A stretch of DNA of 64,000 bases from an uncultured Cycloclasticus sp. (GTDB taxonomy: Bacteria; Pseudomonadota; Gammaproteobacteria; Methylococcales; Cycloclasticaceae), in contig CAJXOJ010000005.1 of assembly GCA_913057515.1 (NCBI GenBank), positions 1 to 64,000 on the forward strand. Reading direction: 5' to 3'. The notes beneath the pieces are model-generated. The model worked only from the letters and a program-made list of their open reading frames with translations, did not search any database and was not told the DNA's origin. Below are positions 10,420 to 23,984 of this stretch, one piece after another. Every line of letters begins with the position of its first letter. The stretch's first letter is position 1. The position numbers were made by a program, and so were the translations under genes.

Positions 10420-11271
10420 ATGCTCGCTAAACTCTTTATTATTCTGCAATACATCCTACCGCAACATGGCCTTTCTGCATTAATGCATAAGCTAGCCCGC
10501 TGTAAAACACCTTGGGTAAAAAACCCGTTTATCAAGGTGATCATTAATCGGTTTGGCGTTGACATGTCTGAAGCGGCTGAGCCTAACCCTGAAGCTTACG
10601 AATCATTCAATGCATTTTTCACTCGTGAGTTACGAGAAGACGCAAGACCGCTAGAACATGAGCCAACAACCATTTCCTGCCCAGTGGATGGTGAAATCAG
10701 TCAAATTGGCAGCATAGAAAAAGGCGAAGTGTTCCAAGCAAAAGGTAAATCATTTAACTTATCTGCTTTATTGGGTAATGATGAGTTAGCAAATGAGTTT
10801 GAAGGCGGTCAATTTACAACCATTTACTTATCACCTAAAGACTATCATCGCATCCACTTTCCTGTGGACGGCACACTAACAAAAATGCTGCACGTCCCTG
10901 GTGAGTTATTCAGTGTTAATCACACAACGGTAGCTGCCATTGATGAGTTATTTGCTCGCAATGAACGTGTTATCGCCTTCTTTGATACGCCTGCCGGCCC
11001 GATGGCCATGGTGATGGTCGGTGCAATCTTTGTGTCTAGCATCGAAACGGTTTGGTACGGCGAAGTAACGCCTCCACGCCACAATCAAATTCGGAGCTGG
11101 AACTATAGTGACGATAGCTTAGCGTATAAAAAGAATGATGAAATGGCTCGATTTAATATGGGCTCAACCGTTGTCTTGTTATATGGTAAAGACAAGGTCG
11201 CTTGGCTCGAAGAATTAACTGCTGGTCAGGCCGTTCAATATGGGCAAGTAATCGGAAACATTAACACCTAA
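10420..11271 (+). CDS. psd: phosphatidylserine decarboxylase proenzyme
   Basis: Makes phosphatidylethanolamine from phosphatidylserine at the inner membrane using a pyruvoyl cofactor. The 283-aa sequence has CPVDGEISQIG, the catalytic-region YLSPKDYHRIHFPVDG near residue 150, and the self-cleavage site as MGST near residue 248 (LGST in E. coli), where the Ser becomes the pyruvoyl group. The length is as expected for type I Psd. It follows the aminotransferase by 17 nt and precedes the YjdF-like gene by 6 nt. Confidence 0.96.
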   Translation: MLAKLFIILQYILPQHGLSALMHKLARCKTPWVKNPFIKVIINRFGVDMSEAAEPNPEAYESFNAFFTRELREDARPLEHEPTTISCPVDGEISQIGSIEKGEVFQAKGKSFNLSALLGNDELANEFEGGQFTTIYLSPKDYHRIHFPVDGTLTKMLHVPGELFSVNHTTVAAIDELFARNERVIAFFDTPAGPMAMVMVGAIFVSSIETVWYGEVTPPRHNQIRSWNYSDDSLAYKKNDEMARFNMGSTVVLLYGKDKVAWLEELTAGQAVQYGQVIGNINT

Positions 11272-12841: not shown

Positions 12842-13411
12842 CTAATTTTTTACTCGTGCAGAGTACTCACCGGTACGGGTATCCACTTTGATCACTTCAC
12901 CAATTTGAACAAATAAAGGAATACGTACCACCGCCCCAGTTTCAAGTGTAGCCGGTTTACCACCCCCACCCGAGGTATCGCCTTTTAAACCCGGGTCGGT
13001 ATCGGTCACCTCAAGTTCCACAAAGTTAGGTGCAGTCACCAACAAAGGTGCGCCATTCCACAGTGTAACCGTGCATTTATCTTGATCTTTAATCCACTTA
13101 GCCGCATCACCAACCGCAGTCGCATCACCTGACACTTGCTCATAGGTTTCATCATCCATGAAATACCAAAAGTCACCATCGTTATATAAGTAAGACATTT
13201 CTGTCTCCATAACATCTGCTGCTTCAACCGATTCACCTGATTTAAAAGTACGCTCAATAACTCGGCCTGTTTTTAAGTTACGAATTTTAACGCGACTAAA
13301 CGCGGGGCCTTTACCGGGTCTTACAAATTCATTTTCCATAATTGAACAAGGGGCGTCATCCAACATGATTTTCAAACCGCCTTTGAATTCGCTAGTGCTA
13401 TACGTTGCCAT
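12842..13411 (-). CDS. efp: elongation factor P
   Basis: Relieves ribosome stalling at polyproline stretches. The 189-aa protein has the three-beta-barrel EF-P layout, with the modification loop [12 protein letters not shown] placing the modified lysine at K34. A lysine in a PGKG context is the substrate of EpmA, and both epmA and epmB flank the gene, so beta-lysylation (not rhamnosylation or 5-aminopentanolylation) is expected. The C-terminal signature [11 protein letters not shown] is typical of EF-P rather than YeiP. Confidence 0.97.
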
Positions 13412-13449
13412 ATAAATTCTCGTTAATAGTTAATCTTCAATTAATCACT

Positions 13450-13457
13450 ATTATAAT
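13450..13457. promoter_or_regulatory. overlapping -10 elements between efp and epmB
   Basis: The 8-bp palindrome ATTATAAT supplies a perfect TATAAT on each strand in the 44-bp gap between the divergent efp and epmB genes. On the minus strand it sits about 40 nt upstream of efp. On the plus strand it overlaps the ATG at 13456, so using it would give a transcript starting near the second ATG at 13465. The -35 boxes are weak on both strands. Confidence 0.4.
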
Positions 13458-14478
13458 GGCTAACATGACAAACATTGAAAAAACTTCTTTAATTCCCAAT
13501 TGGCAACAAGAACTGAAATCCGCCTTTACTAACATTAATGAGTTATTAAGTTTTTTAAACTTAAACGTTGAGGATTTGAGCCTCTACAGTAATGCAGCAA
13601 AAAAATTTCCTTTACTCGTCACTCGTAGTTACGCAGAACGCATTGTTAAATCAGACTGGAATGACCCGCTGCTTCGCCAAGTGCTCCCACACCCTGACGA
13701 ATTAGCAGCCCATCCCAATTACTTAAGCGACCCCGTTGGAGATTCATCAGCAAGTATTTCACCCGGCTTAATACATAAGTACTACGGACGTATTTTAATC
13801 ATTAGCACTGGCGCCTGCGCCATACATTGCCGCTATTGTTTTCGTCGAGAGTTCCCCTACTCTGACAACAGTGCGCATCGCTCACAACTCGACTCCATCA
13901 GCCAATACCTATCCAACCACACTGAGGTCACTGAGGTTATTCTTAGTGGTGGCGATCCTTTAACCCTCAGTGACTCGAAACTTCAGCATTTACTCGAGCA
14001 ACTGGTGAAGCAACCGCAAGTCGAGCGTATTCGAATTCACACCCGCATACCCATTGTATTACCCAGCCGTATAACACAAGCGTTAATAAAAACCCTATCG
14101 TCCACGCCAAAAAAAGTAATCATAGTGATTCATAGCAATCACCCAAATGAACTGAATCATGAGGTTTCTGCTGCCTTACTCTCACTAAAATCCATCGGTG
14201 TTATTCTATTAAATCAAACGGTGTTGTTACGCGGCGTCAATGATAACGCAGATACATTGGTTAAATTGAGCCACCGCTTATTCGATTGCTCTACGATACC
14301 TTATTACTTACACTTACTTGATAAAGTAACAGGAGCGACGCACTTTGACTCCACTCAAGCGCATAGCGATAACATATACCAACAAATACAAGAAAGGCTC
14401 CCCGGCTATCTCGTACCGAAACTGGTTAGAGAAGAGGCAGGTAAAAAGCATAAAACCATCATGGCTAAACGCTTATAG
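13456..14478 (+). CDS. epmB: EF-P beta-lysylation protein EpmB (lysine 2,3-aminomutase family)
   Basis: A radical-SAM, PLP-dependent enzyme converting (S)-alpha-lysine to (R)-beta-lysine for EF-P modification. The 4Fe-4S cluster motif CAIHCRYCFRREFPY lies near residue 112, followed by EVILSGGDPLTL. The ORF track begins at 13405, inside efp, but homology begins around MTNIEKTSLIPNWQQEL. I choose ATG 13456, giving 340 aa against 342 in E. coli; ATG 13465 is a close alternative. No strong ribosome-binding site is visible. With efp and epmA next door the modification set is complete except for EpmC, which is dispensable for lysylation itself. Confidence 0.93.
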   Translation: MANMTNIEKTSLIPNWQQELKSAFTNINELLSFLNLNVEDLSLYSNAAKKFPLLVTRSYAERIVKSDWNDPLLRQVLPHPDELAAHPNYLSDPVGDSSASISPGLIHKYYGRILIISTGACAIHCRYCFRREFPYSDNSAHRSQLDSISQYLSNHTEVTEVILSGGDPLTLSDSKLQHLLEQLVKQPQVERIRIHTRIPIVLPSRITQALIKTLSSTPKKVIIVIHSNHPNELNHEVSAALLSLKSIGVILLNQTVLLRGVNDNADTLVKLSHRLFDCSTIPYYLHLLDKVTGATHFDSTQAHSDNIYQQIQERLPGYLVPKLVREEAGKKHKTIMAKRL

Positions 14479-14565: not shown

Positions 14566-16299
14566 ATGGATACGCACAAACAGTTCAGGGATAGAATTAA
14601 ATCGACTCTCATTAAATCCCACGTAGATTTACCTTTCGAGCCCACTTTAAGCGCTTGCCAAGAATGGGCTGATTCCTTACCCATTTTAAACACTGCATTA
14701 ACAGCTGATTTGATGTCCGTCGCTTCACAAGCACTATTATCAATAGACATCAACCCATTAGATAAATTTAAAATCTCTGAGGCCATTAAGCCGTACAGCA
14801 TAAAACTACTTTCAACTTGTTCGGAAGAATTAGAAAGAACGAGTCTTCCTTTAAGCAAAAAAACATCTAATACTGCTAAGCAAACGCTCAACGTCTTAAC
14901 AAACTTTCATTTAATTTATATTGATATCGCTTGCTCAAAGGGCTTTATGGGCACATCTAGCGGTAACAAACGGTCAAGCATTGTCCCTCAGCAACAAAGA
15001 GAGCTTATTCTTCATCGCGCCATGGAGTTACTAGGTATTACTCAGTTATTTCAATCGCTTATTTATATGCAACCTGACCTTATTTTTTGGTCTAGAGCTA
15101 ATGCTTTATTTGAATTTGCAGAAAGCCTTTCTATTCAAAAACATAGCTACCTTACAATTGATGAAAGTAAATCGACCACGATTGAAAATATATTTAAGGA
15201 AATTCATTACTTCCATCTAGCTGCCTCAAACCGCTTTAGACAGAACGATATAAAAACTATTCATCAAATTCTAGCGTTACAATCTGATAATATTTTAATG
15301 ACCTCTACTCACGATGATGCTTCGACTTTTTGTGTTGATTTATCATCATCGTCACCAGCAACGCCTGTCCCCGACTTACCAGCCGATGACAAGCAATACC
15401 GGTTTTTAAACAATGAACACCTCATTCAATTCATGCAAAGTAGTGAGGTTATTGCACCAGAAAGGCAGGGTGTTATTTCTTTAGCATCTAAAAAACCCAT
15501 TCTATCAAAAGGCACTATTCACCAATTATTACCCAGCTGGCGCGGCATATTGAGTCGTAAAGAAACGAGGCACGAGCAAACTGAAGAAGTAACCGTCTAT
15601 CCAGGGTTTGACAGTATCATCAGAGCACTACTGATAAAGCAAAACCCTCATTACTTTAAGCAAAAAGGAAACCTTCCTGGTCAAAACCTAGAGAGCTTAC
15701 ACTTAGTCCCTATAGGCGAGCCTCAAAGAAGCAGATATCTGTTGAGCGATATAGACACCAATAGGGCACTCAAAGCATCTGTTAAAAAGCCTCTTTCTTT
15801 CAATAGCATTTGGACGAAAAAAAGCGCCATAAAACCGGGGGAGAAAGGTGAATCAATAGATGCTGAAACAAACGATGCGAGCCTACAAGGACTAATGTTT
15901 ACAGTTTCAGCTGATAACCAACCTCTTTTAAAAGCTAATGATCTCATTGGAATTCAAACCAAAAATGAAAGCATTCAATTAGCTATTATCAGGCGCATCA
16001 ACACATTGCCAGAGAAAGATATTTCTGTAGGAGCAGAAATGATGTCGCCTAGTATCAAGATTGCCAACATTAAGTTCCATGATAAAGAGGCTCCGCCCAA
16101 ACCGGTCCTTTTTCTCCAAGGTATTCCAGCTGTTAATCAACCCGATGCCATTATCAGCCCATTTTTAATTGATAATGCGCATGCAGATATCATATTCAAA
16201 AAAACGGGTGCTACAAGCACTTATCTCATCGATAAAACCCTCGAAACAAATCAAGTTTTTACGCATTACACGGTTTTAAAAGAAGCCAATGTAGATTAA
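14566..16299 (+). CDS. uncharacterised protein with PilZ-like C-terminal region, upstream of FimX-like gene
   Basis: A 577-aa protein that I do not recognise by name. The first about 280 residues are helical, without signal peptide or membrane segment. The middle (about 280-430) is polar and probably flexible. The last about 140 residues contain NDASLQGLMFTV near residue 436, where DASLQG fits the PilZ (D/N)xSxxG motif, followed by LIGIQ...LAIIRRINTLPEKDISVGAEMM, the beta-rich pattern of PilZ-type c-di-GMP receptors. I could not find a clear RxxxR partner motif. It ends 30 nt before the FimX-like gene and is probably co-transcribed. In Pseudomonas, as I recall, a similar uncharacterised gene also precedes fimX close to psd. 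A role as c-di-GMP receptor or partner is inference. Confidence 0.55.
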   Translation: MDTHKQFRDRIKSTLIKSHVDLPFEPTLSACQEWADSLPILNTALTADLMSVASQALLSIDINPLDKFKISEAIKPYSIKLLSTCSEELERTSLPLSKKTSNTAKQTLNVLTNFHLIYIDIACSKGFMGTSSGNKRSSIVPQQQRELILHRAMELLGITQLFQSLIYMQPDLIFWSRANALFEFAESLSIQKHSYLTIDESKSTTIENIFKEIHYFHLAASNRFRQNDIKTIHQILALQSDNILMTSTHDDASTFCVDLSSSSPATPVPDLPADDKQYRFLNNEHLIQFMQSSEVIAPERQGVISLASKKPILSKGTIHQLLPSWRGILSRKETRHEQTEEVTVYPGFDSIIRALLIKQNPHYFKQKGNLPGQNLESLHLVPIGEPQRSRYLLSDIDTNRALKASVKKPLSFNSIWTKKSAIKPGEKGESIDAETNDASLQGLMFTVSADNQPLLKANDLIGIQTKNESIQLAIIRRINTLPEKDISVGAEMMSPSIKIANIKFHDKEAPPKPVLFLQGIPAVNQPDAIISPFLIDNAHADIIFKKTGATSTYLIDKTLETNQVFTHYTVLKEANVD

Positions 16300-16329
16300 G
16301 GTAGTCGTATCATAATACTTGGCTGATGG

Positions 16330-18411
16330 ATGACTAAACGCACTGTACTCACTCTTAATTTTTCGACAGAAGAAATTGAGACTTTAGACCTTACATTAAA
16401 TGACACTCGTATAGATGCGACCTTAACGCCAATCTCTATAGACCTTTTAGACTCAGTCAAAGAACGCCTTACCGATATAAACATAGTCATTGTAAAGCTT
16501 CATACCAGTGATCTTAAAAATACAGTACTGTTAGAAACAGTACAACAAAACCTTTTTTCGTTGCCAATAATTTTGGTGCCTAATAACGAATTACAAACCC
16601 AAGGCAGTCATCGCTACAATGCTGACAATATCATTGACATACGTTCCTTTAAGCCGTGTTTTCTACTTGCAAAATCTATTGGGCGTGAAATAAAGTCCCA
16701 GCATAATGAATATCAACTACATCAGGTTAGATCACAATTTAAAAATGAAACCTATCGATTTGATGCCTTTTTAAAACACACTGAGGATGGTGTAGCACTG
16801 ATTCATGAAGGGCAATATTGGTCAAGCAACGCTGCCTACAAAAGAATTTTTAATATCCCTGCCGAAGAGAACATCATACATTCACCCGTGCGAGAGTTTA
16901 GCAGCCCAACTTCTTGCCCCACCCGTGGTAACTTATCTAAACAAAACTTAAATACGTCCTTAGAGTCCCTTCCGGATGAAACCATCTTATCTGTTCTCAT
17001 TCAAACCCGCGACGGGGATTCATTCATCACTACGATCTATAAAACACATTGTTTTATAGATGATAAACTCTGTACTCAAATCTTAATCCATAACCCCGAT
17101 GCTTGGAGCAATGTAGAAAAAGGGTTTACCGATTTACGTTCTTTTGATCATGAAACCGGCTTATACAATCAACGGTTCTCGACCGAATATATCAATAAAG
17201 AAATAGACAGTGAAAAACCACATGGCTCACTGGCCTTCATCCTTATTGATGACTTCCGCAATATTCGAGAGCAGCATGGTATTAATTATATTAACGACAT
17301 TGTTCGCTCAGTCGGTCATGTCATCAACCAATCGTGTGCTAATAGTGATATTTTAGCTCGTTATGGCGATGCTGTATTTACCTTATTTTCTTCCGAGTTA
17401 AGTCGCTCAGACTTTTTATTAAACTGCCAACAAGTATTAACGGATGTCAATAACTCATTGTTCGGTGACGATAGCCAGTACGTTAAACTAACACTGAGTA
17501 TTGGGGTCAGCTTTATTGACCCTCGAGTGACAGCATCCAATCAACTGATTTCTCAAGCCGATAAAGCCTGTGACAAGGCCGGTACAGCAGGTGGTAATCA
17601 GATCCATGTATTTGACTCTGTAACAACACCACTCACCATCCTCTTTGACGAGGAAAATAATGCGCGTTTAATTAGGGACTCTATAGAACAAAATAGGCTT
17701 CACCCTATGTACCAACCTATTGTCGACCTTTCTCAAAAATCTACAGAAAACTATGCTGTCCTCCTGCGTATTCTCGATGAAAATAAAGCACATATAGGCC
17801 CTGATCACTTTATTCTTACTGCTGAAAAAACCGGCTATATTAGCCAACTAGACGAGTGGGTACTTAAAAACACAATACAACAAATTAAAAGTGCTTCACA
17901 ACAAGGGTTAAAAAGAAAATTTTTTATTTCCATATCTAGTACCACTTACCGCCATAATTCATTTGTGGAAACACTAATGAGTGAACTTAGGCTCAACAAT
18001 ATTGATTCAAGCTTATTGGTCTTCCAAATTAACTTTTCTAATGTAAAAACTGAGCCCAATATTTTAAAAAAATTCACCAGCGTGATTAAAAAGGAAACTA
18101 ACTGTCAAATTGCTTTTGACCAAATTGGCTTTAGCCAAATCACAGATAAAATACTGAAGAACTATCACGTTGATTACTTAAAAATTGACGGCACTTTTAG
18201 CCAAAATTTAGTCAACAATAAAGAATCTCAAGACATCATAAAAAACATCATCGAAATAACGCGTAGAAACGATGTTAAAACAATTGCTAAATCTGTTGAA
18301 AACGCAAATACTCTTGCCCTTTTATGGAATATTGGTATTGATGCTGTTCAGGGCTACTTCTTACAAGAACCATCCGATACGATGCGTTTTGATTTTGACC
18401 TAAACCACTAA
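16330..18411 (+). CDS. FimX-like degenerate GGDEF/EAL c-di-GMP regulator
   Basis: A 693-aa protein with a receiver-like N-terminus (about 1-125), a PAS-like segment (about 150-250), a GGDEF domain (about 270-430) and an EAL domain (about 455-690). The GGDEF signature is replaced by YGDAV in LARYGDAVFTLF. The EAL motif is AVLLR in ENYAVLLRI, lacking the catalytic glutamate, and the DDFG loop reads FDQIGF. Both catalytic sites are therefore probably dead, as in Pseudomonas FimX, which binds c-di-GMP through its EAL domain and promotes type IV pilus assembly at the pole. MYQPIVDL and LKIDGTF are retained, consistent with ligand binding. Partner gene: the PilZ-like ORF immediately upstream. Its 3' end overlaps the 5'-nucleotidase by 4 nt on the opposite strand. 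Confidence 0.8.
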   Translation: MTKRTVLTLNFSTEEIETLDLTLNDTRIDATLTPISIDLLDSVKERLTDINIVIVKLHTSDLKNTVLLETVQQNLFSLPIILVPNNELQTQGSHRYNADNIIDIRSFKPCFLLAKSIGREIKSQHNEYQLHQVRSQFKNETYRFDAFLKHTEDGVALIHEGQYWSSNAAYKRIFNIPAEENIIHSPVREFSSPTSCPTRGNLSKQNLNTSLESLPDETILSVLIQTRDGDSFITTIYKTHCFIDDKLCTQILIHNPDAWSNVEKGFTDLRSFDHETGLYNQRFSTEYINKEIDSEKPHGSLAFILIDDFRNIREQHGINYINDIVRSVGHVINQSCANSDILARYGDAVFTLFSSELSRSDFLLNCQQVLTDVNNSLFGDDSQYVKLTLSIGVSFIDPRVTASNQLISQADKACDKAGTAGGNQIHVFDSVTTPLTILFDEENNARLIRDSIEQNRLHPMYQPIVDLSQKSTENYAVLLRILDENKAHIGPDHFILTAEKTGYISQLDEWVLKNTIQQIKSASQQGLKRKFFISISSTTYRHNSFVETLMSELRLNNIDSSLLVFQINFSNVKTEPNILKKFTSVIKKETNCQIAFDQIGFSQITDKILKNYHVDYLKIDGTFSQNLVNNKESQDIIKNIIEITRRNDVKTIAKSVENANTLALLWNIGIDAVQGYFLQEPSDTMRFDFDLNH

Positions 18412-22739: not shown

Positions 22740-23984
22740 ATGTCTATTAGAAATTTAACAGTCGAAGAAGTTAACTCTTTATTCCCTATTAGGAACTTCT
22801 CTGACAGTAGTAAACAACAAATGCTAAAAGTGGCACAAACGGAAACTTTCGATGCCAATAGTGTTCTCTTTTCTGCCGGCAGCAGTAATGGTCACCAAGT
22901 ATACCTTTTAGAAGGTAAAGTTCTACTCACTCTCCCCAACAATAAGGAACGGGTTATAGAAGGTGGGCACATAGAGGCTCGCTTCCCTATTGATAACAAC
23001 ACCCCACACCAAGCAACGGCTCTTGCAATCAGTCCAGTAACTATACTATCCATTAAACACTCAACCATAGACAGTTTAATGAATGGCGTTTCCCTTGGTG
23101 ACAATGGTCAGCTTGGCATCCTTGAAGAAAACGAAGATTCCCTACTTTATAACCAGCTTTATTTTGAAGTTACTCAGGAAATGCAAGCTGATAAGTTAGC
23201 ATTACCTTCCATTCCAGAAACTGCCATAAAAGTGCGAACAGCCGTTTCAGACCCTCATGCAACATCAGCTAAAATAGCAACATTAATTCAACAAGACCCT
23301 GCCATTACTGCCCAGCTTATTAAAGTCGCTAACAGTCCCCTTTTTAGAGGGCGTGAACGAATTGAAGCGCTACCACCCGCTATCACGCGATTGGGAATGA
23401 AAGGCATTAGCAACCTTATCACCTCATTTACCATGAGAATGGTTTTTAATGCTAAAACAAAAGATGTTAAAGAATTAATTTCAACACTTTGGCTACATAG
23501 CCGTGATGTGTCTGGAATATGTGCAGTTATGGCTAAAAAACTTAAAGGTTTTGATGCAGACAAAGCCATGCTAGCCGGTTTAATACACGATATTGGCACG
23601 ATACCTATTCTTACTCATGCTGATAAGCACCCCAACTTAATAAGCAATAAACGTGATGTACAAAACACCCTTAAAAAACTAACACCAGTCATAGGAAAAA
23701 TGGTGCTAGAAAAATGGAACTTCACTGAAGATTTTATTGAGTTAGCCCTTAATGCTGAAGATTGGGAGCGCAAAACAACTCAACCCGCTAATTACACCGA
23801 CCTAGTCATTGTGGCCCAGTTACTCAGTTATAGGAATACGCCTTTACAAGAAGGCCACCCTGACCCTGCAAGCATTCCAGCCTATGAACGTCTTACCAAA
23901 TTACTCAAAGACCCCAGTGATTCAATCGATGTGGTAGAAAATTCACAGGAAGAACTGGCCGACATAAAACAGCTGTTCAACTAA
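22740..23984 (+). CDS. cyclic-nucleotide-binding domain + HDOD domain protein
   Basis: A 414-aa two-domain regulator. Residues about 15-125 form a cNMP-binding-like beta barrel (FDANSVLFSAGSSNGHQVYLLEGKVLLTL), although the phosphate-binding cassette is not obvious, so nucleotide binding is uncertain. Residues about 155-350 form an HDOD domain: LPSIPETAIKVRTAV, IQQDPAITAQLIKVANSPLF, and the HD-like AGLIHDIGTIPIL. HDOD proteins lack phosphohydrolase activity and act in signalling, often near motility genes. It precedes the FliK-like gene by 17 nt, so co-transcription is likely. It diverges from prmB. Confidence 0.82.
   Translation: MSIRNLTVEEVNSLFPIRNFSDSSKQQMLKVAQTETFDANSVLFSAGSSNGHQVYLLEGKVLLTLPNNKERVIEGGHIEARFPIDNNTPHQATALAISPVTILSIKHSTIDSLMNGVSLGDNGQLGILEENEDSLLYNQLYFEVTQEMQADKLALPSIPETAIKVRTAVSDPHATSAKIATLIQQDPAITAQLIKVANSPLFRGRERIEALPPAITRLGMKGISNLITSFTMRMVFNAKTKDVKELISTLWLHSRDVSGICAVMAKKLKGFDADKAMLAGLIHDIGTIPILTHADKHPNLISNKRDVQNTLKKLTPVIGKMVLEKWNFTEDFIELALNAEDWERKTTQPANYTDLVIVAQLLSYRNTPLQEGHPDPASIPAYERLTKLLKDPSDSIDVVENSQEELADIKQLFN

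Follow-up and report, generated by a model that had tools for sequence, protein, structure and literature searches.

The closest described system is the fimWfimX operon of Pseudomonas aeruginosa (PMC7314104). P. aeruginosa FimW is described as a c-di-GMP-binding regulator of pilus extension encoded with FimX (PMC11656802) and as being of the PilZ type (PMC12564702); it dimerises, relocates to the cell pole when a surface is touched and promotes the assembly of pili (PMC10212136). One later study reports twitching of a fimW mutant close to that of the wild type (PMC12288467), while a review states that FimW is needed for optimal twitching; according to PMC11656802, no FimW-FimX or FimW-PilB interaction is published. 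In Xanthomonas citri, a FimX-PilZ-PilB complex is established, the canonical PilZ does not bind c-di-GMP, and P. aeruginosa FimX does not conserve the residues by which X. citri FimX contacts PilZ, namely W445, M487, M488 and A493 (PMC11656802).

The DNA analysed here (the window) is a stretch of 64,000 nucleotides from an uncultured Cycloclasticus sp. whose genome (G000) comprises 2.48 Mb. The original prediction described a two-gene c-di-GMP module close to psd, and both open reading frames were recovered in the window with the following neighbours:

10420..11271, + strand: psd, the context common to the Pseudomonas fimW-fimX locus (in loci L104 and L105 psd directly precedes fimW and is 51-54% identical).
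13405..14478, + strand: epmB, the conserved upstream neighbour (tblastn identity of 44-81% beside P1-family genes class-wide).
14566..16299, + strand: fimW homologue (P1), 577 aa (family profile A1 and conserved place between epmB and fimX).
16330..18411, + strand: fimX homologue, 693 aa (GGDEF and EAL by Pfam; top PDB matches to P. aeruginosa FimX).

The fimW-fimX gap is 30 bp with both genes on the + strand, and epmB ends 87 bp before fimW. The gene order ppsA–aminotransferase–psd–epmA–efp–epmB–P1–fimX–nucleotidase was common to the window and the named relatives of the locus, which comprised Cycloclasticus or Piscirickettsiaceae genomes and one MAG labelled Methylococcaceae. Since P1 and fimX persist across the genus, they are not chance open reading frames. 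The order of the two genes and their proximity to psd are the same as in P. aeruginosa; unlike in Pseudomonas, epmA-efp-epmB lies between psd and fimW in the window, and fimX is followed by a nucleotidase-like gene instead of serB. A promoter scan did no better than shuffled sequence. An HDOD gene is located at 22740-23984, about 4 kb downstream of fimX.

The downstream protein had been described as a degenerate FimX with YGDAV and AVL in place of the catalytic motifs, and this description held in Pfam, PDB and alignment comparisons. Pfam detected GGDEF (E 3.6e-21) and EAL (E 1.5e-51), and the top PDB matches were P. aeruginosa FimX chains (E 3.9e-55), with the first non-FimX protein at 5.2e-32. 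REC and PAS domains were not found by Pfam in the window FimX, though its N-terminus does align with that of Pseudomonas FimX. Full-length copies are 53-78% identical across the genus. The two degenerate domains are placed as follows:

17143..17601, + strand: degenerate GGDEF domain, motif GDAVF at 17365-17379 (Pfam E 3.6e-21; aligned to Pseudomonas GDSIF).
17671..18372, + strand: degenerate EAL domain, motif AVL, with Ala476 (17755-17757) in place of the Mg/catalytic Glu (Pfam E 1.5e-51).

In the alignment, RFGDSIF of Pseudomonas corresponds to RYGDAVF in the window and EVL to AVL, so that even the Mg2+-binding Glu475 is lost (replaced by Ala) in the window protein. FimX binds c-di-GMP by Leu477, Arg479, Asp507, Glu654 and Tyr673 (PMC3527489), and the equivalents of all five are kept in the window FimX, while the guanine-stacking Phe652 is replaced by Ser. 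Because the catalytic Glu and the GGDEF motif are lost and these contacts are kept, the protein should be a c-di-GMP sensor which neither makes nor hydrolyses c-di-GMP, as had been predicted.

The identity of the upstream protein was established through Pseudomonas. P1 itself gave no significant match in Pfam, NCBIfam or PDB sequences, the P1-family profile gave two PDB matches at chance level, and weak Pfam matches (DUF3110, CHDNT, HNH_3 and others) were set aside, as they were dispersed and did not reach the cut-off. With a PDB sequence of P. aeruginosa FimX, the nearest Pseudomonas genome among those searched was located, a member of the P. aeruginosa group (G473, FimX 97% identical). At its locus (L104) the gene order is rhdA–psd–607-aa protein–fimX–serB, in which rhdA and serB were assigned by sequence and by the PAO1 map. 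The 607-aa protein upstream of fimX (L104_4277_6103) matches the P1-family HMM A1 over its full length with an E-value of 1.8e-67. In the family alignment the window protein is about 15% identical to Pseudomonas FimW, and its orthology therefore rests on profile and synteny; on these two grounds P1 is the Cycloclasticus FimW. A literature search for the locus tag PA4958 found nothing on function. FimW diverges faster than its neighbours, as the mean identity to the window across seven loci was 46% for FimW, 65% for FimX and 67% for EpmB. The proposal of an under-described new system was thus not borne out, since the partner is FimW, a c-di-GMP effector encoded with fimX in P. aeruginosa.

Structure models of FimW were built on 10 close sequences only, with mean pLDDT of 74 and 67, and were combined with the family alignment to delimit the following parts:

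14566..15435, + strand: N-terminal helical domain of no known family, about residues 1-290 (AF2 model).
15556..15570, + strand: RxxxR motif (R331 and R335; residues 331-335), first half of the PilZ c-di-GMP signature (family alignment).
15661..15849, + strand: disordered linker inside the PilZ-type domain, residues 366-428 (AF2 pLDDT below 50).
15856..16080, + strand: PilZ-type beta-barrel core, with DASLQG at 15874-15891 (residues 437-442) (Foldseek; Pfam in relatives).
16081..16281, + strand: C-terminal beta extension, residues 506-572 (strands in the model).

The N-terminus had been described as helical and unrecognised, and in the AF2 model it is indeed all-helical over some 240 residues (helices from 3 to 242, pLDDT mostly 80-95), with Y167 and W175 invariant across 29 family members. 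DASLQG is present as described. In the family alignment of 32 sequences, which includes Pseudomonas FimW, the [D/N] of [D/N]xSxxG (D437 in the window) is kept in 31, the Ser (S439) in 26 and the Gly (G442) in all. The RxxxR motif, missed by the original prediction, completes the PilZ signature, with R331 kept in 32/32 and R335 in 31/32. The two halves are separated by 86-120 aa in 32 relatives, while a few tens are usual for PilZ; one FimW paralogue has a near-canonical spacing of only 39 aa.

The claim of a PilZ-like C-terminus was supported but not proven, and a prediction lacking any PilZ fold there, which would have refuted it, did not arise. For the FimW core, Foldseek returned PilZ structures at probability 0.95-1.00 (BcsA 4p00, PA0012 8u0i, YcgR 5y6g, PP4397 2gjg and 3kyf, and PlzA 7mie), with rmsd 2.3-4.4 over 69-79 columns and E-values of 0.1-1.3; every E-value in this search was above 0.001, and other beta-barrels were also matched. 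Pfam PilZ (PF07238) gave no match in the window FimW or in Pseudomonas FimW, and in some FimW relatives it matched at E 2.4e-4 to 0.11, the best, a paralogue, with 21.8 bits, just below the curated cut-off of 22.5. FimW shares RxxxR, [D/N]xSxxG and a putative barrel fold with the PF07238 proteins (PA0012, YcgR and the PilZ domain of BcsA), but differs from them by the insertion of about 100 residues between its motifs and by falling under the Pfam cut-off. Conserved motifs, weak Pfam matches in relatives and fold matches with non-significant E-values support, but do not prove, that the FimW C-terminus is a PilZ domain with this long insertion. Elsewhere in the genome, a PilZ-family protein (L004:1237-1797) carries an N-terminal RRxxR and an NLSGSG about 90 residues apart and represents another split PilZ.

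The P. aeruginosa and Cycloclasticus pairs have in common a FimX with degenerate GGDEF and EAL domains and a FimW with a C-terminal split RxxxR...[D/N]xSxxG domain. The likeness to the PilB-PilZ-FimX system of X. citri consists in a FimX homologue and a PilZ-superfamily protein. In one alternative, P1 would take the place of the small pilus PilZ or act alongside it, linking FimX to PilB in the manner of the Xanthomonas PilZ. P1 does carry PilZ signatures and is encoded beside fimX, and the X. citri complex is well founded; yet the genome encodes a separate canonical pilus PilZ (G000:C2, L002:1462-1818, 118 aa, E 1.9e-43 to 3cnr), flanked by holB-like and tatD-like genes, and P1 was therefore rejected as the xanthomonad-type PilZ partner. 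P1 is almost five times larger than that type of partner and keeps RxxxR and DxSxxG, whereas the canonical PilZ lacks c-di-GMP binding (PMC11656802). The X. citri PilZ-contact residues are not kept in the window FimX either, as the Met-Met pair of xanthomonad FimX (4foj), which holds PilZ in X. citri, aligns with His-Ile. In addition, P. aeruginosa has both PilZ and FimW (PMC12564702), which also speaks against this alternative. We consider this bridging role very unlikely; the predicted large PilZ-type partner beside fimX was supported, but not the xanthomonad pattern.

The original prediction also depended on the two genes being conserved together. In 14 of the 17 other members of the genus at least part of both fimW and fimX was found, and fimW lies directly upstream of fimX in the window and in those members of the genus that carry the two on a single contig. 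Neither gene was found in G001, G015 and G016, the latter two being 98-99% complete. The 14 include G006, in which a 101-aa N-terminal P1 remnant is followed by a broken C-terminal fimX remnant; at this locus (L022) both genes have degenerated and form one joined remnant interrupted by several stop codons. Contigs were searched with a genus-level alignment as query. Among the gammaproteobacterial genomes with a FimX-like match in the matches listed, at least 49 of 71 had a P1-family match on the same strand no more than 2.4 kb upstream, and of the 30 best loci across the class, 20 had epmB just upstream of the P1-family gene. Being present or lost together in the genus and adjacent class-wide, the genes are co-conserved, and a lack of co-conservation is refuted.

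The window's genome encodes PilB along with a second PilB-like ATPase and ATPases of PilT/PilU size; at L115 (G000:C53) a PilC/GspF-like gene follows that of the second, PilB/MshE-like ATPase, and a gene for a PilZ-domain protein (L005) lies some 6 kb away. PilB was undetected in G016 and G006, which have no intact pair, but G015 and G001 keep PilB without either gene, so pili may exist without the pair. These two members speak for another alternative, in which c-di-GMP sensing by the pair feeds into a different machine, for example the second PilB/MshE-like ATPase system, or into a non-pilus process. Two further observations point the same way: the genome's second PilB/GspE-like ATPase is accompanied by an inner-membrane protein gene of its own, and in other genomes FimW paralogues adjoin unrelated genes. 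Against it, both proteins of the pair act in pilus control in P. aeruginosa (PMC11656802 and PMC10212136), and the genus members with PilB undetected carry no pair or only remnants. We regard such a different output as very unlikely.

The FimW family was found in 131 of the 281 gammaproteobacterial genomes sampled, with up to 7 copies per genome. Many paralogues per genome were seen at L120-L129 (G088, G302, G156, G071, G132 and G248), with 7 in G088 and a tandem pair in L126, and nearly all carry the split RxxxR...[D/N]xSxxG signature. In three genomes, FimW-family genes unlinked to fimX are convergent, in the same order, with a GIDE / EF-hand protein gene (L107:3673-7435, L109:5305-7999 and L110:5605-8380), and at L108:2046-7914 a FimW-family gene is divergent from three consecutive HDOD-protein genes. 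We give an even chance to the view that no member but FimW has been studied in a large, paralogous family of the Gammaproteobacteria, which combines an uncharacterised helical domain with a PilZ domain interrupted by a long disordered stretch, so that PilZ searches overlook many c-di-GMP receptors.

Taken together, the pair is most probably the Cycloclasticus fimW-fimX operon, encoding two non-catalytic c-di-GMP receptors that control type IV pilus assembly, a reading to which we assign a probability of about 85%. It is drawn from sequence, namely the FimX relationship, the FimW family and locus, the loss of FimX catalytic residues with contacts kept, the split PilZ signature, and the co-conservation and co-loss of the genes. 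By analogy with P. aeruginosa, surface contact would raise c-di-GMP, and c-di-GMP-bound FimX would engage PilB, the extension ATPase, without PilZ as an intermediary, which is the Pseudomonas mode. FimW would bind c-di-GMP, dimerise, gather at the pole and promote pilus assembly, with its helical N-terminus as the putative dimerisation or targeting part. The shared retention and loss of fimW and fimX argues for a putative joint action of the two proteins, for which no interaction is published.

In conclusion, the pair is real and well conserved, and it extends a previously named system to a new group of hosts rather than being a new system. What is new is the breadth of the FimW family, its paralogues and the description of the split PilZ domain. 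The standard PilZ model does not detect the FimW family, so c-di-GMP receptors in these bacteria have probably been undercounted. These results place the surface-sensing pair known from P. aeruginosa in hydrocarbon-degrading marine bacteria.
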